In this document: positions 46,995 through 63,535 of the stretch, in pieces
How positions within the stretch are numbered: position 1 is the stretch's first letter
Layout: every line of letters begins with the position of its first letter
DNA from: Kribbella sp. NBC_01245
GTDB lineage: Bacteria; Actinomycetota; Actinomycetes; Propionibacteriales; Kribbellaceae
Direction of reading: 5' to 3'
Length of the DNA: 64,000 nucleotides
Assembly (NCBI RefSeq): GCF_036226525.1
Contig: NZ_CP108487.1
Location: 1,860,001-1,924,000 of the forward strand
Translations under genes and position numbers: made by a program
Notes under the pieces: model-generated
Database searches by the model: none
Seen by the model: the letters and a program-made list of their open reading frames with translations, nothing else
Told to the model about the DNA's origin: nothing

Positions 46995-48023
46995 ATGTCT
47001 GAACAGCATGGCGAGAGACAGGTGGCGGGCCGGGGGGCCCTGTTTGCGATCGGTGGCGCGGAGGACAAGCTCAAGAAGCGGATGGTCCTCCAGGAGTTCG
47101 TCGACGCCGCAGGTGGCTCTGAGGCCCGCATCGTGGTGGTACCGACAGCGTCGGCTCTAGGGCCCGACGTGGTCGACGTGTACTCCGCGCTCTTCTCGGC
47201 GCTTGGCGCGAAGCAGGTCGTCGGAGTGCGTCCCGAGACTCGTGAGGACGCAGAGGACCCGGCGTTCGTCGAGCCCTTGCACACGGCCACTGGCATCTTC
47301 ATGACCGGTGGTAACCAGCTCAAGCTGTCCGGCGTCGTCTCCGGTACGGCGTTCGGCAAGGCCGTCACCGACGCGCACGCCCGTGGCGCCACAGTCGGTG
47401 GTACGTCGGCCGGCGCGAGCATTCTCGCCGAGCACATGATCGCGTTCGGCCGCGCGGGCGCCACCCCGCGGCAGCGGATGAGCCAGCTCGCGAGCGGCCT
47501 CGGCCTGGTCCAGGGCGCGATCGTCGACCAGCACTTCGCCCAGCGAAACCGGTACGGCCGACTGCTCTCCCTGGTGGCGCAGTCCCCCGGGCTGCTCGGC
47601 ATCGGCGTCGACGAGGACACGGCCGCCGTCGTCCATGGCGATCACCTCGAGGTCGTCGGCCGAGGTGCCGTCACGATCTTCGATGGCAGCCACATCACCA
47701 CCAACGCCCACCACGCGAAGCGTTCCGAGACCCTGCTGGCGTCGGGCGTCGTACTGCACGTCCTGCCGGCCGGCGCGACGTTCAACCTCAAGGCCCGGGC
47801 ACTCGTGTCGTACGGCGGTCAGCCCCCGGCCGAAGAGCTCGAGGAGATCGAGCGGGCCGAGGCCGACCTCAGGGCGCTCGCGGCCGAGATCGCGGCGGAC
47901 GGCGTCTCCCCGGCGTACTACGCCGAGCGCAAGCGCCGTGCGGCCAGTCGCAGGCCGAAGAAGGCCGCCGAGATCGTCGTACCGGAAGACAACCCTCCAA
48001 AAATAGACAGTGGGAGCGCATGA
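46995..48023 (+). CDS. cphB: Cyanophycinase
   Basis: 342 aa serine peptidase of family S51, cutting the beta-Asp-Arg polymer cyanophycin to dipeptides. The nucleophile Ser138 lies in VGGTSAGASIL; FAIGGAEDK, FMTGGNQLKL and IVDQHFAQRNRYGRLL match cyanophycinase. No signal peptide, so it acts inside the cell. The C-terminus has a charged 60-residue extension (EELEEIERAEADLRAL...KRRAASRRPKKAAE). It overlaps cphA by 4 bp (ATGA), so synthesis and breakdown enzymes are coupled. Confidence 0.95.
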   Translation: MSEQHGERQVAGRGALFAIGGAEDKLKKRMVLQEFVDAAGGSEARIVVVPTASALGPDVVDVYSALFSALGAKQVVGVRPETREDAEDPAFVEPLHTATGIFMTGGNQLKLSGVVSGTAFGKAVTDAHARGATVGGTSAGASILAEHMIAFGRAGATPRQRMSQLASGLGLVQGAIVDQHFAQRNRYGRLLSLVAQSPGLLGIGVDEDTAAVVHGDHLEVVGRGAVTIFDGSHITTNAHHAKRSETLLASGVVLHVLPAGATFNLKARALVSYGGQPPAEELEEIERAEADLRALAAEIAADGVSPAYYAERKRRAASRRPKKAAEIVVPEDNPPKIDSGSA

Positions 48024-50812
48024 ACGAAGAGCAGGGCACCCGGCCCAGCCCCGACCTGAAGATCATCGAGACGCGGGTCTACCGCGGTCCGAATATCTGG
48101 AGTTACGAGCCGGCCATCCATCTGGTGGTCGATCTCGGCTCGCTGGAGGATTTCCCGTCGAACACGATCGACGGCTTCACCGAGGGTCTCCTGGCGCATC
48201 TTCCCCGGTTGGATCAGCATCATTGCTCGCGCGGCAAGAAGGGCGGCTTCATCGAGCGCCTGGACGAAGGGACCTGGCTCGGCCATATCGCCGAGCACGT
48301 GTCACTCCAGCTGCAGCAGGAGGCCGGGCACGATATGCGCCGCGGCAAGACCCGGCAGGTCAAAGGCGTGCCCGGGCGGTACAACATCATCTACTCGTAC
48401 GCCGATGAGGCCGTCGGTCTGGCGGCCGGCGAGCTCGCCGTACGGTTCGTCAACCACCTCGTCCAGCCGGAACCCGACTTCGACTTCACCACCGAGCTCG
48501 AGCGGTTCATCAAGCAGGCCGAGCGAACCGCCTTCGGCCCGTCCACGCAGGCCATCGTCGAAGAGGCGATGTCGCGGGACATCCCGTGGATCCGGCTGAA
48601 CAAGTTCTCGCTGGTCCAGCTCGGCCAGGGTGTGCACGCGAAGCGGATCCGGGCCACGATGACGTCCGAGACCGGCTCGATCGCGGTGGACGTTGCCGGC
48701 GACAAGGACCTCACCACCCGGCTGCTCGCCTCGGCGGGCCTGCCCGTGCCCCGGTCGGACTCGGTCCGTACCGTCGAGGACGCGGTCAGCGTGGCGAACA
48801 AGATCGGTTATCCCGTCGTCTGCAAGCCCCTCGACGGCAACCACGGCCGCGGCGTCTGCCTGAACCTGCAGAGCGCCGACGACGTACGCGAGGCCTTCCC
48901 GATCGCGGCCGACCAGTCCCGGCGCGGCTGGGTCATCGTCGAGAACTTCGTCACCGGCAAGGACTACCGCTGCCTGATCATCAACGGGCGGATGGAGGCC
49001 ATCGCCGAGCGCGTCCCGGCCCACGTCGTCGGTAACGGCGAGCACTCGGTAGCCGAGCTGGTCGAGATCACCAACGCCGATCCGCGCCGAGGTGTCGGGC
49101 ACGAGAAGATCCTGACCCGGATCACGATCAACGCCGCCGCGGTCGAGCTGGTCCGCACTCAGGGCTTCGAGATGGACGACATCCCGCCCGCGGACACGAT
49201 GGTGAAACTGACGCTCACCGGCAACATGTCCACCGGTGGCATCTCGATCGACCGCACCTTCGAGGCGCACCCGGAGAACGTCGAGATCGCCGAAGAGGCC
49301 GCCCGGATGATCGGTCTCGACATCGCCGGCATCGACTTCATCTGTCCCGATATCGCCCAGCCGGTGCGTGAGACCGGTGGCGCGATCTGCGAGGTCAACG
49401 CCGCGCCGGGCTTCCGGATGCACACCCACCCGACCATCGGCGACCCGCAGTACATCGCGAAACCCGTGGTGGACATGCTGTTCCCGCCGGGTGCGCCGAG
49501 CCGGATCCCGATCGTGGCCGTCACCGGTACGAACGGTAAGACGACCACCTCCCGGATGATCAGCCACGTCTTCAAGGGCCTCGGTCACAAGGTCGGCATG
49601 ACCTCAACCGACGGCGTCGTGATCGACGAGCGACTGGTCATCCGCGCGGACGCGTCCGGCCCGAAGTCGGCCCGGATGGTCTTGCAGAACCCGCGCGTCG
49701 ACCTGGCCGTGTTCGAGGTGGCTCGCGGCGGCATCCTGCGCGAGGGCCTCGGCTATGAGCGCAACGACGTCGCCGTCGTACTCAACATCCAGCCCGACCA
49801 CCTCGGCATGCGCGGTATCGACACCCTCGAACAGCTCGCCGACGTGAAGGCCGTCCTGGTCGAGGCCGTGCCCCGGACCGGCTTCGCCGTACTGAATGCC
49901 GACGATCCACTGGTACGTCGGATGCGCAGGCGGTGCTCCGGTCAGATCGTCTGGTTCAGCGTCGCGGAGGCCGGCAGCGAGGTCCGCGAGTACATCGAGA
50001 GCCATTGCCGTCGCGGCGGCCGGGCCGTCGTCCTCGACCGGTCCGACCTCGGCGACATGATCGTGGTGAAGCACGGACGCCGTTCGATGCAGCTGGCCTG
50101 GACGCACCTGCTGCCGTCGACCTTCGGCGGCCGGGCCATGATGAACGTGCAGAACGCGATGGCCGCCGCGGCCGCCGCCTTCGCCGCGGGAGCTCCGCTG
50201 CACGACATCCGGCAGGGCCTGCGCACGTTCGCGACGTCGTACTACCTGTCCCCCGGCCGGTTGAACGAGATCCAGGTCGACGGGCGCACGGTCATCGTCG
50301 ACTACTGCCACAACGCGCCGGCGATGCGGATGCTGGGCGATTTCGTGGACAAGCTCGGCGACAACCTCGGCCAGTCGTCAGACCTCGGCCGGCCGTCCCG
50401 GATCGGCGTGATCGCGACAGCCGGCGACCGGCGCGACGACGACATGCGCGAACTGGGCGAGGTCGCCGCGCAGCACTTCGACGTGGTGATCGTGCGGGAG
50501 GACGTCCGGTTGCGCGGGCGAAAGGCAGGCGAGTCGGCCGAGTTGATCACCGAAGGCGTACGTCGGGCGATGGAGAACGGCGCCCGGTGCCGACAGGTCG
50601 AGGCCGTGCTGGACGAGCTCACGGCGGTCCGGCACGCGCTGACCCGGTCCAACCCGGGCGATCTGGTCATCCTTTGCGTTGACCAGCACCAGACCGTTCT
50701 GGCCGAGCTCGAGTCCGTCTCGCACCTGGCCCAGGCCGGCGCGCGCTCGGGTGACGAAGGCGGCGACCCCGACTTCGTCAAGCCGGAAGGTGAACCAACC
50801 GACGCGAGTTAG
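48020..50812 (+). CDS. cphA: Cyanophycin synthetase
   Basis: 930 aa, full length. Three domains: an N-terminal polymer-binding domain (1-160, ETRVYRGPNIWSYEPAIHL), an ATP-grasp domain adding Asp to the backbone (about 200-490, YPVVCKPLDGNHGRGVCLN, ICEVNAAPGFRMH), and a Mur-ligase-like domain adding Arg to the side chain (P-loop GTNGKTT at 503-509, DYCHNAPAM near 770). It stores nitrogen as multi-L-arginyl-poly-L-aspartate granules without ribosomes. Uncommon outside cyanobacteria but known in some heterotrophs. A partial paralogue is encoded at 53003-54700. Confidence 0.97.
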   Translation: MNEEQGTRPSPDLKIIETRVYRGPNIWSYEPAIHLVVDLGSLEDFPSNTIDGFTEGLLAHLPRLDQHHCSRGKKGGFIERLDEGTWLGHIAEHVSLQLQQEAGHDMRRGKTRQVKGVPGRYNIIYSYADEAVGLAAGELAVRFVNHLVQPEPDFDFTTELERFIKQAERTAFGPSTQAIVEEAMSRDIPWIRLNKFSLVQLGQGVHAKRIRATMTSETGSIAVDVAGDKDLTTRLLASAGLPVPRSDSVRTVEDAVSVANKIGYPVVCKPLDGNHGRGVCLNLQSADDVREAFPIAADQSRRGWVIVENFVTGKDYRCLIINGRMEAIAERVPAHVVGNGEHSVAELVEITNADPRRGVGHEKILTRITINAAAVELVRTQGFEMDDIPPADTMVKLTLTGNMSTGGISIDRTFEAHPENVEIAEEAARMIGLDIAGIDFICPDIAQPVRETGGAICEVNAAPGFRMHTHPTIGDPQYIAKPVVDMLFPPGAPSRIPIVAVTGTNGKTTTSRMISHVFKGLGHKVGMTSTDGVVIDERLVIRADASGPKSARMVLQNPRVDLAVFEVARGGILREGLGYERNDVAVVLNIQPDHLGMRGIDTLEQLADVKAVLVEAVPRTGFAVLNADDPLVRRMRRRCSGQIVWFSVAEAGSEVREYIESHCRRGGRAVVLDRSDLGDMIVVKHGRRSMQLAWTHLLPSTFGGRAMMNVQNAMAAAAAAFAAGAPLHDIRQGLRTFATSYYLSPGRLNEIQVDGRTVIVDYCHNAPAMRMLGDFVDKLGDNLGQSSDLGRPSRIGVIATAGDRRDDDMRELGEVAAQHFDVVIVREDVRLRGRKAGESAELITEGVRRAMENGARCRQVEAVLDELTAVRHALTRSNPGDLVILCVDQHQTVLAELESVSHLAQAGARSGDEGGDPDFVKPEGEPTDAS

Positions 50813-50864
50813 CGTCAACGTCATCGGAGTCCCACCTCGTTGTTGGGATGAGGAAGGGACACCG

Positions 50865-51422
50865 ATGACTTATCAATCCGTATCCGGGCGGGATCCGGGC
50901 GACGGCTTCGACGCCTTCGTCCGGGCCCGCTGGACCGCGACCGCGCGACTCGCCTATGCGCTCACGCTCGACCATCAGAAGGCCGAGGATCTCGCGCAGG
51001 AGTCGTTCGCGAAACTCTGGTTCCACTGGAAGAAAGTCGGCGCGGAGAACCCGGACGGGTATCTGCGCCGCGTGGTCACCACCACGTTCTTGTCCGGACG
51101 GCGCCGCCGGTGGATCGGCGAGCGCCCGACCGCCGTACTGCCGGATCACCCGGTCGGGCCTGAGACTGGCCGCATCGATGACCAGCAGGCGCTGCGGCAG
51201 GCCATGGCCCGGCTCAGTCCGCGCCAGCGTGCCGCCGTCTATCTCCGGTATGCCGAGGATCTGCCTGAGCAGGTCGTCGCCGAGCTGATCGGCTGTTCCG
51301 TCGGCACCGTCAAGACCCATGCGAGCCGGGGTCTGGCCGCACTGCGCGGCGACAACGCGCTCGATCCCAACACATTTGACGAGCCCGGCGCGTTCGCCGG
51401 GATCGCGGAAGGCCGTGCCTGA
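50865..51422 (+). CDS. ECF sigma factor, SigE (TIGR02983-like) family
   Basis: 185 aa. Region 2 ([41 protein letters not shown]) and region 4 ([48 protein letters not shown]) are intact. AGGAAGGGACACC precedes the ATG, giving a close ribosome site. Its TGA overlaps the ATG of the next gene (TGATG), a membrane protein that sits where an anti-sigma factor would be encoded. Probably an envelope or signal-responsive sigma factor; its regulon is unknown. Confidence 0.92.
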
Positions 51423-51976
51423 TGACCGATGACTTGAAGAGGTTCTTCGACAACCTGACGGACGCGCGGCCGGAGCCGGTTGATCCGGCTGCGCGCGTGC
51501 TGGCTCGCGTACGGTCCAAGAGGCAACGACGTCGTACGGCGATGGTGGTGGGCGCGGCTGCCGTAAGCGTGCTCGCGATCACGGCCGTACCGGCGGTCGG
51601 GAGTCTCGGCAATGGGCCGGGCGTGAGCGATGCCCCCGGCCCGGCGCCCACGTCCCCAGCGACTCCGGTGCAATCGCCTTCGCCGGTTCCGACGCCATAT
51701 AAGACGCCGACCAGCGGGATCCCGACGCCGGTCCCGACGCCGTACAAGACGCCGACCAACTCGCTCCCGACGCCTTACCCGACGGCAACTCCGTCCGACC
51801 GGCCCGCCACGCCGACGCCGTACCCCACGCCGACGAAGACGCCAACCAGCTCAATCCCGACGCCGACGCGACCCCCGACGGCCATCCCGACGCCGTACCC
51901 GACCCCCACGAAGCCGCCGGCCACGCCGTACCCCACACCCTCGAAGGCCCCCGCCACACCAACGCCTTCGAAGTAA
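51422..51976 (+). CDS. Membrane protein with extracellular Pro/Thr/Tyr repeats, possible anti-sigma partner
   Basis: 184 aa. The cytoplasmic N-terminus (about 38 residues, [37 protein letters not shown]) is followed by one membrane helix ([20 protein letters not shown]) and then about 120 residues of TPxPTPYxTPT repeats. The layout (short inner segment, one helix, outer domain) and translational coupling to the sigma gene suggest a sigma-anchoring protein, but there is no recognisable zinc anti-sigma motif. The repeat would be extended and stiff and could span the cell wall. It may be O-mannosylated, since Thr/Pro-rich. Confidence 0.82.
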
Positions 51977-52095: not shown

Positions 52096-52962
52096 TTAGG
52101 ACCGGCGTGGGAGGAGGAGGCGGCGGGGTGGTTCTTCGCGGTCGATCCAGTCGAGGTCGCCGGGGAGGAACGCGTCGTTGCCTCGTCCCTCCAACGCCGC
52201 ATCCGGCACGGGCGGCGGAGGCGGTGGCAGGGCGCGGACCTTCATCGCGGTCATCGGGATCGCGAGGAAGAACGCGGCCGTCAGCCAAGGCCAGTACGAC
52301 AGCAGGAACGGGCCGAACGCGTTGAAGAACGCATCCGACGCACCATCCGCGATCGCGTCCACTGCAAGGCCTTTGCCGAGATCGGCCGCCACCCGTTCGC
52401 ACGCGTCGATGAAGGCGAACGACGCGACAAACACCGCGGTCAACGGCAACCAGAAGTAGCCCGCGTGCCACCCGGTCCGCCAAATCGCCACGTGCATCAA
52501 CACCGCAAGCCCGATCGCGATCAGCAATCCGTTGAACTCCCAAGTCCAACGCCAAGCACCCAGCGCCTCTTCGGGCAACACGATGTAGGACGCGAGCGGC
52601 AAAGCCAGGGCAAACGCCGCCGGCACCGACCGACGACTACCGAAGGCGCCCGCCAATGAGCCCACCACGCTCGAAACCGAAAGCACGATCCAAAGACCGC
52701 GATCCCCAACGAACGAGTGGTCGCTGAACCACCACGCCGCGGACGCCAGCACCAACCCGAGCCCCAGCGCCAAACGGAAGCGGCCGACCAGTAGGCCGAC
52801 CGCCACCCCACCGGTGAACCCACCGATGATCAGCACGTCGACCCCGGAAGACGGCACCAGTGTCCCGGGACTCTCCGGCAGGCCGCTCAGGTACGACGGG
52901 GCGAAGCCCACCACGAACCAGGCGGCGATTGCCGACGGGACAGACCACAGTGCGCGCAGCAT
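52096..52962 (-). CDS. Polytopic membrane protein, unknown function
   Basis: 288 aa with about eight hydrophobic segments in the first 240 residues and a cytoplasmic Pro-rich tail (ALPPPPPPVPDAALEGRGNDAFLPGDLDW). No transporter or enzyme signature recognised. The ATG at 52962 (MLRALWSVPSAIAAW) has AGAGGTCC just upstream. It is the last gene of a minus-strand run that begins with fabG; 40 bp separate it from the CphA-like ligase gene, so it might be cotranscribed. Convergent with the Pro/Thr repeat protein, with hairpin C between. Confidence 0.8.
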   Translation of the reverse strand: MLRALWSVPSAIAAWFVVGFAPSYLSGLPESPGTLVPSSGVDVLIIGGFTGGVAVGLLVGRFRLALGLGLVLASAAWWFSDHSFVGDRGLWIVLSVSSVVGSLAGAFGSRRSVPAAFALALPLASYIVLPEEALGAWRWTWEFNGLLIAIGLAVLMHVAIWRTGWHAGYFWLPLTAVFVASFAFIDACERVAADLGKGLAVDAIADGASDAFFNAFGPFLLSYWPWLTAAFFLAIPMTAMKVRALPPPPPPVPDAALEGRGNDAFLPGDLDWIDREEPPRRLLLPRRS

Positions 52963-53002
52963 GAGGACCTCTGGCACTGGCCGTCTGCAGGCGAAGAACC
53001 GG

Positions 53003-54700
53003 TCAGTGCTGTGCTCGTTCGACCTTGTTCTTCAAGGTCTCCGGACTATCGACGGTAGCTCCCTCGGACCGCAACCAGGCGTCAAGACTCGCCCGATCCT
53101 GCAAGGACATCACGGCCACCACATCGCCGTCCTTGGCCTCACCGAACAGGAAACCGGCCGCCTCCAGCTCGGACGGAAAGGCCGGTACGTCCTCGACGCC
53201 GACCGAACGGGTGCCGATCCGGAAGGCTTCTTCGAGCTCGCGGGGATCGCGACCTCGCAGGTAGTCGCCCTTATGGCCGATCACCACCCGGTCCGCGACG
53301 CGCGCGCCCATCTCCCCCATCGCCGTGACCATGTCGTCGGCGCGGTCGCCCGGCGATCCGAGTGCCAGCAACAAGCGGGATCCCGGCGCGCGGACGCCGT
53401 TCATGATCTCCAGCAGCGCCTCGAGCCCGGCCTCGTTGTGCGCCAGGTCGATCACCACGGTGAAGTCGCGCACCGAGTACATGTTCATCCGGCCCGGGTT
53501 GTGCTCCGGCCCCGGGCGGAACGAGCTCAGGCCCTCCACGACCGCGCTCTTCGGCAAACCGAGACCGAGTGCGGCCGAGGCGGCGGCGAGTGCGTTCTCC
53601 ACGTTGAACCGGGACAACCCGGCCAACGTCATCGGTACGTCGACCACCTTCAGCAAAGGCGTCGGGTCGTCCGACGCGGAAAGCACGGTGATCCAGCCAT
53701 CGAGCACGGTCGTCGCGCGGCCGCCCTCGTCGAGCACGGTCCGGATCGACGGCGAGTCGGCATCCCGGGAGAACACCCAGCACTTCGCCGGCGAACCCAG
53801 CCGCATCGCGAACGTCCGCGGGTCGTCGCCGTTCACCACGCACCAACCGCGCGGCCGGGTGATCTTGGTGACGACGGCCTTCACCTCGGCCAACTGGTCG
53901 ACCGTGTCGATACCGCCGAGGCCGAGGTGGTCCGCGGAGATGTTGGTGACCACGGACACGTCGTTCCAGGCGACACCGATACCGCGCCGGAGGATGCCGC
54001 CACGAGCCGTCTCGGTCACCGCCAGCTGCAGACCCGGATGGGCCAGCACGGTCCCGGCGCCGGATGGGCCCGAGTAATCGCCGTACTTCACGAGCTCACC
54101 ATCGACGTACACGCCGTCGGTGCTCGACCAGCCCACGTGCAGCCCGGCGGCACGACCGATGTGCGCGATCATCCGGGACGTCGTGGTCTTGCCATTGGTC
54201 CCGGTGATCGCGACTACGGGGATCTTCGGCCGCAGGGTCGGCGGCGGATTGCCGGGCGGTTCATCGCGAACCGTCGAGCCCGCGGCCGTGACCACCTCGA
54301 CCAATTCCTCGTCGGGCCGCCCGAACGCGTCGACCACCTCGGCGATCGCGCGCCCAAGCGCCTTCGCCCGATCCTCATGCACCCAAGGGAACGCGACCAC
54401 CACACGCCGTACGTCGTTCTCGGGGCGGACGCGGACACCGATCCGGCCGATCCCCGATTCGCGCGCGAGGCGCCGGACGATATGGCCGACGACCCGGATC
54501 GCGAAGCGTTGCCGGAAGCCGGAGCCGATCCGGCCCGGCCGGGTGCTGCCCAGCCCGAGTGCCGAGGCGAACGCCTTCGCCTCGGGTGCCGGTGCGTCCA
54601 TCAACGCGGTGAGGTCCAGCGTCAGCTTGACCGCGGCACGGCTGAAGTAGAGGTTGGCCCCGTCCAGAACGCGGAGCTCAACGAGAGAGGTGGTGCTCAT
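53003..54700 (-). CDS. CphA paralogue without ATP-grasp domain (N-domain plus Mur ligase domain)
   Basis: 565 aa. Residues 155-565 are a Mur-ligase domain closely like that of the nearby CphA: P-loop GTNGKTTTSRMI at 167-178, SGPSGAGTVLAHPGLQLAVTE, TARGGILRRGIG, ADHLGLGGIDT, and DLAHNEAGLEALL. Residues 5-125 align with the CphA N-terminal domain (LRVLDGANLYFSRAAVKLTLDL against TRVYRGPNIWSYEPAIHLVVDL; GHIVRRLARESG against GHIAEHVSLQLQQEAG). The 300-residue ATP-grasp domain between them in CphA is absent. It should form an ATP-dependent amide bond, possibly on a polymer side chain; substrate unknown. Third gene of a fabG-fabI operon, 36 bp after fabI. Confidence 0.85.
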   Translation of the reverse strand: MSTTSLVELRVLDGANLYFSRAAVKLTLDLTALMDAPAPEAKAFASALGLGSTRPGRIGSGFRQRFAIRVVGHIVRRLARESGIGRIGVRVRPENDVRRVVVAFPWVHEDRAKALGRAIAEVVDAFGRPDEELVEVVTAAGSTVRDEPPGNPPPTLRPKIPVVAITGTNGKTTTSRMIAHIGRAAGLHVGWSSTDGVYVDGELVKYGDYSGPSGAGTVLAHPGLQLAVTETARGGILRRGIGVAWNDVSVVTNISADHLGLGGIDTVDQLAEVKAVVTKITRPRGWCVVNGDDPRTFAMRLGSPAKCWVFSRDADSPSIRTVLDEGGRATTVLDGWITVLSASDDPTPLLKVVDVPMTLAGLSRFNVENALAAASAALGLGLPKSAVVEGLSSFRPGPEHNPGRMNMYSVRDFTVVIDLAHNEAGLEALLEIMNGVRAPGSRLLLALGSPGDRADDMVTAMGEMGARVADRVVIGHKGDYLRGRDPRELEEAFRIGTRSVGVEDVPAFPSELEAAGFLFGEAKDGDVVAVMSLQDRASLDAWLRSEGATVDSPETLKNKVERAQH

Positions 54701-54736: not shown

Positions 54737-55507
54737 TCAAGCACCCATCGCGTGGAAGCCGCCGTCGACGTGCACGATCTCGCCGGTGGTAGCGGGGAAG
54801 AAGTCGCTCAGCAGGGCCACGATGGCCTTGCCCGCGGGCTCCAGGTCGGACGGGTCCCAGCCGAGCGGGGCCTGGTCCAGCCACGGGCCCTCGAACTTCT
54901 CGAAGCCCGGAATCGCCTTCGCGGCCAGGGTCTTCAGCGGCCCGGCGGAGACGAGGTTGCAGCGGATGCCGTTGGCGCCGAGATCGCGCGCGAGGTACCG
55001 CGAGGTGGACTCCAGCGCGGCCTTGGCCACACCCATCCAGTCGTACCCAGGCCAGGCCACAGTCGCGTCGAACGTGACACCGACGACGCTGCCGCCCGGG
55101 CTCATCAACGGCGCACAGGCCATCGCGAGGGACTTCAGCGAGTACGCCGAAACGTGCAGCGCGTGCGAGACGTCCTCCCACGGACCCTCGAGGAACTTGC
55201 CGCCGAGGATCGTCTCGGGATTGCCGTACGCGATGGAGTGCACGACGCCGTCGAGTCCGTCGACGTGTTCGCGCACTGCGTCGGCCAGGCCCGCGAGGTG
55301 CTCGGGGTTGCTGACGTCGAGCTCCAGCACGGGTGCGGGCGCAGGCAGCCGCCCGGCGATCCGCTTGGTGATGTTCAGCGCGCGGCCGAAGTTCGAGATC
55401 AGGACCGTCGCGCCCTGCTCCTGCGCGACCTTGGCGGTGGCGAAGCCGATCGAGGAGTCCAGCGTCACCCCGGCGACCAGGATCCGTTTACCGTCGAGAA
55501 TGCCCAC
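54737..55507 (-). CDS. fabI: Enoyl-[ACP] reductase (NADH), InhA/FabI type
   Basis: 256 aa. The FabI-class pattern VAGVTLDSSIGFATAKVAQEQGA replaces the usual SDR GxGxxG, VHSIAYGNPETILGG follows, and the catalytic Tyr-Lys pair is in YDWMGVAKAALES. It carries out the last reduction in fatty-acid elongation. GTG start with AAAGG upstream. The fabG-fabI order matches the mycobacterial fabG1-inhA operon, but where mycobacteria have hemZ the CphA-like ligase follows here. Confidence 0.95.
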   Translation of the reverse strand: MGILDGKRILVAGVTLDSSIGFATAKVAQEQGATVLISNFGRALNITKRIAGRLPAPAPVLELDVSNPEHLAGLADAVREHVDGLDGVVHSIAYGNPETILGGKFLEGPWEDVSHALHVSAYSLKSLAMACAPLMSPGGSVVGVTFDATVAWPGYDWMGVAKAALESTSRYLARDLGANGIRCNLVSAGPLKTLAAKAIPGFEKFEGPWLDQAPLGWDPSDLEPAGKAIVALLSDFFPATTGEIVHVDGGFHAMGA

Positions 55508-55537: not shown

Positions 55538-56242
55538 TCAGTTGCCCATACCGATGCCGCCGTCGACCGGGATCACCGCGCCGGTTATGTAGCCGGCCTC
55601 CTCGGACGCGATCCAGCGCACGGCGTTCGCGATCTCGGTGGTCAGGCCGAAGCGGCCGAGCGGGATCTGGCCGAGGTACTGCTTCTGCGTCTCCTCCGGC
55701 AGTACGGCGGTCATGTCCGTCTCGACGAACCCGGGCGCCACGACGTTCGTGGTGATGCCACGGGAGCCGAGCTCACGCGCCATCGACCGGGCCATGCCGA
55801 TCAGGCCGGCCTTGCTGGCGGCGTAGTTGACCTGGCCGGGCGAACCGAGCATGCCGACGACCGACGAGATGAAGACGATCCGGCCGCGCTTGAGCCGCAG
55901 CATGCCCTTGGAGGCGCGCTTGGCGACCCGGAACGAGCCGGTGAGGTTGGTATCGATGACCGACTGCCAGTCGTCCTCGGACATCCGCAGTAGCAGCGTG
56001 TCCCGGGTGATGCCGGCGTTCGCGATCAGCACCTCGACCGGGCCGTGCGCGGCCTCGATCTCGGTGAACGCGGCGTCGACCTGCTCCGGCACGGTGATGT
56101 CGCACTTCACGCCGAGAAAGCCCTTCGGCGGCTCACCGCTGCGGTAGGTGACCGCGACCTTGTCGCCCGCCTCGGCGAACGCCGTCGCGATGGCCAGGCC
56201 GATCCCCCGGTTGCCACCGGTGACCAGTACCGATCTGCCCAC
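55538..56242 (-). CDS. fabG: 3-oxoacyl-[ACP] reductase
   Basis: 234 aa short-chain reductase. VLVTGGNRGIGLAIA binds NADPH, NAGIT follows, and the catalytic set is Ser (FISSVVG), Tyr and Lys (NYAASKAGLIG). It reduces 3-oxoacyl-ACP ahead of fabI. The GTG at 56242 (VGRSVLVTGG) is preferred because GAGGA lies about 7 bases upstream; the frame reaches 56266 with a TTG. First gene of the operon. Confidence 0.94.
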   Translation of the reverse strand: MGRSVLVTGGNRGIGLAIATAFAEAGDKVAVTYRSGEPPKGFLGVKCDITVPEQVDAAFTEIEAAHGPVEVLIANAGITRDTLLLRMSEDDWQSVIDTNLTGSFRVAKRASKGMLRLKRGRIVFISSVVGMLGSPGQVNYAASKAGLIGMARSMARELGSRGITTNVVAPGFVETDMTAVLPEETQKQYLGQIPLGRFGLTTEIANAVRWIASEEAGYITGAVIPVDGGIGMGN

Positions 56243-56350
56243 GGATTCATCCTCACTCTCGTCCAACGGAGCCGTCGCGCCGAACGCTATCGCCGTACCA
56301 CCCGGTACGACGAAGCCGGGCGGTCCGTTTCACGTTTTAGGCAGTGCGGA

Positions 56351-62299: not shown

Positions 62300-63535
62300 T
62301 CAAGCGGCGGTGGTTTTGGTGCGGTGGGCCCAGGCGGTGTGGGTGTCGTAGTGGGTGCCGGTTTTGAGGCAGCCGTGGAGGAGGCCGACGAGCCGGTTGG
62401 CGAGTTGTCGTAGCGCGGCGTGGTGGCCGTGGCCGCGGGTGCGGAGTTCGTCGTAGTAGGCGCGGGTGTGTGGGTCACGCAGGATGGCGGCGCCGGCTTG
62501 CTGGTCGAGGGCGTTGACGAGCCGGTTGTTGTGGACGAACCGGGCGTGCACCGTTTTCAGCCTTCCGGATTGGCGGGTGAGGGGTGCGGTGCCGGCGTAG
62601 TTCTTGCGGGATTTCGCGTCGGCGTAGCGGCCTGGGGCGTCGCCGAATTCTGCCAGCACCCGGGCGCCGAGGATCGGTCCGAGGCCGGGCAGGCTGCGGT
62701 AGATCTCAACGTCCGGGTGCCGGCCAAAATAGGCCTCGACCCCTGCCTGCAGGCCGGTGATCTCGGTGTTCAGGGCCTGCAGGATCGCCACCGTGGAACG
62801 GACCGTGGCGGCGTAGGCGTCGGCCACGATCTCGGACTGGCCGAGTTGCTCGGTGCGCAGCGCGGCCTGAATCGCGGCGGCCCGGCTGGGCAGATCACCG
62901 CGCCGGCGAGCCGTTTTCAGCGCGGCGGTGATCTGGCCGGTGGTGAGTTTCGCCGCGGCCGCCGGGGTGGCCGCTTTGGCCAGCAACGCCAGCACATCAG
63001 GACTGGTCAACGTCAACGTCCCTTGCTGATACGCCTCCAGCGCGGCCGGGAAGTAGTCCAGCAACGCCGACCGCATCCGCAGCATGTGCCGGGTCCGTTC
63101 CTGGATCAGCGATTGATGCGCCCGGGTCAGCACCTTCACCCCGGCCGCGAGCTGCGAATCGGCCTCGGTGGCCACGAGTTGGTGACGCCGGGTCCGGACC
63201 ATGTCGGCCAGGCTGTGCGCGTCGGTCTTGTCGTCCTTGGCACCCGACAACGACACCACCTCACGATGTCTCGCGGCCAGTTTCGGGTTCACCCCGAACA
63301 CCACATAACCCGCCGCGATCAACGCGGCCACCCACGGACCCCGCTCGGTCTCGATCCCGACCATCACCTGGCCGGGGCCACCATCATCAGGCAAGTGTTG
63401 CGCGATCAGCTCATGGAACTTCACCATCCCCTGGACCCCCTCGGGGACCCGGCGAATGCCCAGCACCCGGCCCTGATCGTCTTGGACCTCGAGGTCATGA
63501 TGATCTTCGGCCCAGTCGTCACCAACGAACAACAC
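62300..63535 (-). CDS. IS110-family transposase (DEDD recombinase)
   Basis: 411 aa. The N-terminal RuvC-like DEDD domain has D7 (VGDDWAEDHH), E62 (VGIETERG), D102 and D105 (AKDDKTDAHSLADMVR). A coiled-coil middle leads to the C-terminal Tnp_20 domain with SLPGLGPILGARVLAEFGD, NYAGTAPL and the probable catalytic Ser323 (TRQSGRLKTVH). All appear intact, so the element may be active. GTG start. These recombinases use a short element-encoded RNA to choose target and donor sites. Confidence 0.93.
   Translation of the reverse strand: MLFVGDDWAEDHHDLEVQDDQGRVLGIRRVPEGVQGMVKFHELIAQHLPDDGGPGQVMVGIETERGPWVAALIAAGYVVFGVNPKLAARHREVVSLSGAKDDKTDAHSLADMVRTRRHQLVATEADSQLAAGVKVLTRAHQSLIQERTRHMLRMRSALLDYFPAALEAYQQGTLTLTSPDVLALLAKAATPAAAAKLTTGQITAALKTARRRGDLPSRAAAIQAALRTEQLGQSEIVADAYAATVRSTVAILQALNTEITGLQAGVEAYFGRHPDVEIYRSLPGLGPILGARVLAEFGDAPGRYADAKSRKNYAGTAPLTRQSGRLKTVHARFVHNNRLVNALDQQAGAAILRDPHTRAYYDELRTRGHGHHAALRQLANRLVGLLHGCLKTGTHYDTHTAWAHRTKTTAA

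Follow-up and report, generated by a model that had tools for sequence, protein, structure and literature searches.

What does a protein built like cyanophycin synthetase (CphA), but without an ATP-grasp domain, do beside a complete CphA? This question arises from a 64,000-nt stretch of the genome of Kribbella sp. NBC_01245 (positions 1,860,001 to 1,924,000 of contig NZ_CP108487.1), which we refer to as the window. A first-pass annotation had described here a CphA-like protein consisting of an N domain and a Mur-type (M) domain, with the ATP-grasp domain "excised". The coordinates that it gave, 53003-54700, were right and the strand is minus; it had overlooked a complete cyanophycinase-CphA pair in the same window (Table 1). 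The short gene and cphA are convergent and 2.2 kb apart, and the Kribbella genome, a single contig of 8.68 Mb, holds one copy of each, plus two weak Mur-type matches. A sigma-70-family gene followed by an ORF with a C-terminal part rich in Thr-Pro repeats lies between them on the plus strand (50679-51976), and a hydrophobic 293-aa ORF with no Pfam match (52096-52977, minus) is found directly downstream of the short gene.

Table 1. Coordinates of the features discussed, in window positions
Feature	Position	Strand	Remarks
Short N + Mur (M) CphA-like ligase gene	53003-54700	minus	ATG start, stop inside span, 565 aa
N domain (residues 1-150)	54251..54700	minus	predicted CphA N-domain fold, HxxEH absent
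Mur core (residues 155-397)	53510..54238	minus	P-loop GTNGKT with K171; E230, D257/H258, K274
Mur lid (residues 398-565)	53003..53509	minus	R404, H421, R453, R482 kept
Mur lid donor amino-acid region	53003..53509	minus	K477, Y480, R536 unlike CphA
Full-length CphA (N, ATP-grasp, M)	48020-50812	plus	TIGR02068 1163 bits against a cut-off of 850; Cx19HxxEH present
Cyanophycinase (TIGR02069)	46995-48023	plus	4-base overlap with cphA start
Enoyl-ACP reductase family (fabI/inhA-like)	54737..55507	minus	36 bp upstream of short gene, same strand
SDR, fabG-like	55538..56266	minus	upstream of short gene, same strand

In Pfam searches the short protein matched Mur_ligase_M (residues 165-377) and Mur_ligase_C (residues 403-531), and no ATP-grasp hit was obtained up to an E value of 1. 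The CphA of the window was positive in the same search, its N, ATP-grasp and Mur domains all being detected. The CphA model TIGR02068 aligned with residues 158-532 only of the short protein and gave 384.6 bits, not reaching the equivalog cut-off. Its N domain was not recognized by Pfam, and phmmer against CphA returned only a noise-level alignment. Comparison of profiles with hhalign gave 95.9% probability (E 5e-9, 128 columns) between the short-family and CphA N domains, against 0.9% for the CphA G (ATP-grasp) domain used as a control. A comparison with the beginning of the CphA M domain reached 98.5%, across 29 columns only, because some N rows extended into the shared P-loop. The short protein was then modeled with AlphaFold2 (mean pLDDT 94.5). 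Residues 4..547 of the model superposed on TeCphA1 (7wae_A) with a Z score of 55.2 and an rmsd of 3.2 over 524 residues, and its N and M domains took up the relative positions that they have in CphA, the ATP-grasp domain being missing; the best non-CphA match of the whole model was MurE (Z 32.8). When the N domain was folded alone (pLDDT 96.1), the eleven best PDB rows were all cyanophycin synthetases (Z 8.9-11.7, the highest for TeCphA1), and the next unrelated row scored Z 6.0. Taken together, the profile comparison, the isolated fold and the whole-model alignment put the resemblance of this region to the CphA N domain well beyond coincidence. The proposed architecture, N plus Mur without ATP-grasp, was thus borne out by Pfam, profile comparison and structure model, and the N region is predicted to fold like that of CphA.

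We next consider the family to which this protein belongs. When genome contigs were scanned with a stretch of 65 residues, at least 309 relatives were confirmed, of which the best 80 were kept; the residue counts given below for short proteins out of 50, 76 or 78 are drawn from these 80 and the window. Nocardioides, Kribbella, Knoellia, Terrabacter, Arsenicicoccus, Flexivirga and Nakamurella, among others, were represented in the best 80, along with soil MAGs whose titles read Chloroflexi (several) or Steroidobacteraceae (one), titles that may be binning errors. In fourteen of the 81 members the C terminus is extended by about 160 residues (L096, L101, L108, L118, L124, L126, L136, L141, L146, L148, L151, L157, L159 and L164; by title Knoellia, Terrabacter, Arsenicicoccus, Flexivirga, Tetrasphaera and others), and in the one member tested, L146, this extension is a TPR_5 repeat domain. 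The N domain of CphA1 also acts as a cryptic primer-making peptidase with the motif Cx19HxxEH (PMC9262961), and this motif occurs in 83% of CphA1 proteins at 70% non-redundancy (PMC9262961). It was present in 58/58 partner CphAs with an N end, whereas HxxEH was found in none of the 78 short proteins with an N end among the window and the best 80 relatives. The annotation had described the N domain of CphA as holding the polymer; we retain this as a proposal for the short protein, and note the peptidase role of the CphA domain, which had been missed and whose motif is absent here.

The short gene is closely associated with cphA. It occurred in 41/58, 30/394 and 24/396 genomes of three overlapping samples, amounting to 86 different genomes, and 85 of these had a second match of CphA type, which was to the M domain and in most cases lay within a long open frame; in G568 and G578 it was only a piece, and in locus L091, from G568, the CphA piece lies beside the short gene. 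The one exception, G655, is 67% complete. In the class sample of 394 genomes, 7 had CphA without the short gene and 357 had neither at the threshold used (Fisher p 1e-38 for co-occurrence). Since CphA stood without the short gene in 7 of the 37 class-sample genomes that gave a match, the short enzyme is not needed for cyanophycin as such. G001, the only same-genus genome of the 58-genome sample without a short gene, was not counted as a loss because its contig ends about 2 kb past the CphA match. Full or partial CphA was also present in 12/12 genomes reached via the loci (at least 2 of them among the 86), including the two with long flanks and no cphA near the short gene. Among the window and the best 80 of at least 309 relatives, cphA was convergent downstream in 70/81 loci and in another orientation in none; the gap was below 2 kb in 53 of the 70 and reached 8.8 kb. 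Nine of the 11 loci without a convergent cphA have less than 7 kb of flank on that side. The survey of co-occurrence that the annotation had called for therefore came out in favor of a link to CphA.

In 41 of these 81 loci, the window included, a fabI-like gene lies ahead of the short gene in the same orientation, so the short gene may be transcribed with lipid genes, and one might suppose an enzyme of another pathway (cell wall or lipid) that lies near cphA by chance. This supposition is at odds with the CphA N-domain fold and with the alphaproteobacterial stretches examined (see below), in which cphA and cyanophycinase were present and no fab gene was seen. MurE-type models also scored below their cut-offs. 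The short protein shares with MurE the Mur core and lid, and its K274, R453 and R482 align with K224, R389 and R416 of the E. coli enzyme; unlike MurE, it reached only 103.5 bits with TIGR01085 (cut-off 257.3), the match beginning only at the Mur core. NF052464 (lipid II isoglutaminyl synthase MurT) gave 43.4 bits against a cut-off of 800. Identity with MurE or MurT is thus ruled out; the other-pathway explanation is already disfavored, and we give it hardly any credence.

Spread outside Actinomycetota was judged from plasmid records and MAG contig titles. A tblastn search of plasmids with a short protein from Ruegeria recovered full-length relatives in a second Ruegeria, in Shinella and in a record named Roseateles; in plasmid records the short protein is labelled 'Mur ligase family protein'. 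The Shinella and Ruegeria proteins resemble the Kribbella type in size, in their Mur domains, in giving no ATP-grasp hit and in the signatures GDYSGP and YLRGR. They differ in gene order, Shinella and both Ruegeria having cyanophycinase, cphA and the short gene on one strand, and in the N region, for which hhalign gave 55% over 47 columns to the Kribbella-type family and 2% to CphA. This link is weak, so that only an M relationship is shown for these members. The Ruegeria and Shinella CphAs also lack Cx19HxxEH, unlike the Kribbella partner CphA.

The relationship of the M domains was examined in a tree of 94 rows, comprising 50 short proteins (the window and 49 of 75 full-length relatives, below 80% mutual identity), 20 of 58 full-length partner CphAs (every third, plus that of the window), 20 other CphAs, 3 alphaproteobacterial members and 1 protein from Legionella; three rows were hand-trimmed to the M domain, and the tree was midpoint-rooted with no outgroup. 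A branch with 100/99 support set the M domains of the short proteins, 50 of them actinobacterial or titled Chloroflexi and 3 alphaproteobacterial, apart from those of all 40 CphAs; the alphaproteobacterial branch was long, at 1.2 changes per column. A recent duplication of the neighboring CphA followed by excision of ATP-grasp is ruled out by this split. The phylogeny thus goes against the "excised" of the annotation: the M domain is a separate lineage, found in Actinomycetota, Chloroflexi-labelled MAGs and Alphaproteobacteria. With no outgroup, the tree fits loss of ATP-grasp in the short family or its gain by CphA alike. An M lineage apart from CphA, together with Gly214 and Tyr480 (see below), is what we propose to define the family, and all three are found in the short protein of the window.

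Is the Mur domain likely to be active? With residue numbering checked against the published TeCphA1 and SuCphA1 papers, K171, E230, D257/H258 and K274 of the short protein align with SuCphA1 K499, E558, D585/H586 and K602. The equivalents of TeCphA1 N497, K499, E558, R731 and H748 are kept in 53/53 short proteins; at the places of T500 and T522, 50 proteins have Thr and 3 have Ser. D585/H586 and K602 are conserved in at least 96% of the 50 short rows and 93% of the 40 CphAs; mutation of the former pair (D585A H586A) inactivates the M domain of SuCphA1 (PMC9262961). The position of TeCphA1 F692, which stacks on adenine (PMC9427784), is variable in the short proteins (F 21, H 17, Y 5 of 53) and in partner CphAs as well. 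Furthermore, dN/dS between the short gene of the window and five Kribbella genes was 0.19-0.23, indicating purifying selection. A decayed or split CphA is ruled out by this ratio of about 0.2, by the kept catalytic residues and by conservation across the family. The tested N, G and M residues of the partner CphAs are likewise kept in 57-58/58, apart from F692 and including one H267Q, so nothing is plainly being replaced, and compensation for a defective partner is also ruled out. A regulatory or scaffolding subunit without catalysis would account for the close association with CphA and for the predicted CphA-like placement of N and M; preservation of the Mur catalytic residues across phyla would be unexpected for a dead subunit, and we consider such a role very unlikely. 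Judged from its sequences, the short family is real and conserved, very likely belongs to cyanophycin metabolism and is probably a ligase.

We then compared the region of the Mur domain that receives the donor amino acid. Seventeen positions mark the actinobacterial short set as against CphA, and five of these (Gly214, Asp313, Arg320, Tyr480 and Arg536) are common to all three alphaproteobacterial members. Gly214 is found in 50/50 short proteins of the actinobacterial set and 3/3 alphaproteobacterial ones, where 40/40 CphAs have Ser; it lies in a loop that aligns near the acceptor-binding threonines of MurE. Tyr480, present in 76/76 and 3/3, aligns with the Asn of the MurE DNPR motif, and Arg536 is found in 72/76 and 3/3. 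In MurE, lysine is bound at its side-chain amine by D413 and E468 (PMC3829189). At the site of E. coli D413, Asp occurs in 58/58 partner CphAs and in 15 of the 19 other CphAs with a residue there (73/77 overall; the remaining 4/19 are also without Asp), and an acidic residue in 0/76 and 0/3 short proteins, which have Lys, Leu, Ala, Val or Asn; one position before it, at 476, Glu is found in 13/76 and 3/3. The place of E468 is Asp or Glu in 58/58 partner CphAs and 10 of the 13 other CphAs with a residue. The corresponding position 534 of the short family is acidic in only 4/76 and is Ala, Gln or Ser in 66/76. At the next position, 535, an acid is present in 66/76; given this and an insertion in the loop, the E468 place may still be filled by an acidic residue. 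We read these differences as a donor pocket changed relative to CphA. They lean towards a changed amino acid, Lys477 and Arg536 hinting that it may be acidic, and leave the chances that arginine is no longer the donor about even.

The retained features also fit an auxiliary arginine ligase that would repeat in trans what the CphA M domain does, to hasten or complete arginine addition or to make the first beta-Asp-Arg priming units. The M catalytic residues, including R453 and R482, are kept, the M-domain fold is that of CphA and an acid adjoins the MurE E468 place in 66/76, all as such an enzyme might be expected to have; set against this, the partner CphAs keep their own M-site residues in 58/58, and none of the 79 short proteins has an acid where MurE has D413. 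We regard this possibility as unlikely. A recycling ligase would instead rejoin to chains the beta-Asp-Arg released by cyanophycinase, as a Mur-type counterpart of cyanobacterial CphA2. Cyanophycinase lies within reach in 55/81 loci (the window and the best 80 of at least 309 relatives), and two lid loops carry insertions that could leave space for a bulkier donor; there is no direct sign of dipeptide binding, and the single active site of CphA2 is the ATP-grasp one, which is absent here. CphA2 polymerizes beta-Asp-Arg using one active site (PMC10206079) and is, like the short protein, without the N-domain peptidase motif (PMC9262961). The two also share the N-domain fold (7ta5, Z 10.2), and they differ in that the short protein keeps M and lacks ATP-grasp. 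We consider recycling very unlikely.

Compared with CphA1, the short protein has the same N-domain fold, the same modeled placement of Mur core and lid, and an M domain with the catalytic residues. It differs in having no G domain, in falling short of the TIGR02068 cut-off, in the absence of Cx19HxxEH, in its separate M lineage and in the changed donor region. Since it has no G domain, it is not expected to carry out the complete synthesis of cyanophycin from Asp, Arg and ATP. In our view the short protein is probably a catalytic ligase on cyanophycin or a piece of it. On balance, we favor an ATP-dependent ligase acting beside CphA that adds an amino acid onto cyanophycin or its ends. The Mur domain would activate a free carboxylate of the polymer (an aspartate side chain or an end) as an acyl phosphate and couple an amino acid to it through the amino group, the reaction that the CphA1 M domain carries out with arginine; the N domain, its peptidase site missing, would hold the polymer. 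Because the partner CphA is intact at all three kinds of known sites, the addition made by the short enzyme should be one that CphA does not make; most likely it puts a different amino acid where arginine would go, or it fills or caps aspartates left bare by CphA. If the protein is indeed a catalytic ligase on cyanophycin, a donor other than arginine is roughly an even call. The fullest version of this proposal, a second class of cyanophycin ligase in at least two phyla that adds a non-arginine amino acid to the cyanophycin of the neighboring CphA, is put forward tentatively, as a possibility that we hold to be the less probable outcome. The observation made by the annotation is confirmed, and its interpretation, which ranged from modification of an existing backbone to ligation of a different amide, is supported in part, a side-chain or terminal ligase on cyanophycin being the best reading.

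A literature search, with few subscription papers within its reach, found no description of an N plus Mur CphA-like protein, and the short family has apparently been overlooked so far. 'Cyanophycin ligase-like proteins' are named in the supplements of PMC3646047. In Tetrasphaera MAGs, cphA is reported to be present twice in series, with higher expression of the longer copy (PMC10687191); the available portion does not state which part the shorter copy is missing. Two of our loci with Tetrasphaera titles (L101 and L124) hold CphA and a short gene, so the 'shorter copy' is probably the short gene. Other cyanophycin side chains, glutamate included, have been reported, and side-chain composition affects solubility (review, PMC8560796). 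Cyanophycin serves to store nitrogen and is a candidate for use as a bioplastic. If our proposal is true, the cyanophycin of actinobacteria and some alphaproteobacteria would be an undescribed mixed or capped polymer, and its mix of side chains would be genetically controlled and not a matter of substrate sloppiness. Should the short enzyme change or finish cyanophycin, the make-up of the polymer in wastewater Tetrasphaera and soil actinomycetes would come into question, and a small ATP-dependent tailoring enzyme would be at hand. The side-chain-adding half of CphA is moreover seen here standing alone in nature, with a bearing on how the three-site enzyme came together.

A few further observations were made along the way. 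A protein on a Legionella adelaidensis plasmid (L172) also has N and M without a full ATP-grasp domain and is encoded beside cyanophycinase. Unlike the short family, its N domain is recognized by Pfam and Cx19HxxEH is present. Its M domain groups with Chryseobacterium CphA (long branches), so a separate origin is likely. The run at L172:3326-5194 includes cyanophycinase and isoaspartyl peptidase, with no full cphA in the stretch examined. On a plasmid of Deinococcus sp. KNUC1210 (L170:3810-6309), a second CphA-like gene, split in two ORFs, clusters with cphA, isoaspartyl peptidase and cyanophycinase. In the window itself, an Rfam match of 55.1 bits places the actinobacterial sRNA Ms_AS-4 at 62612-62693 on the plus strand.
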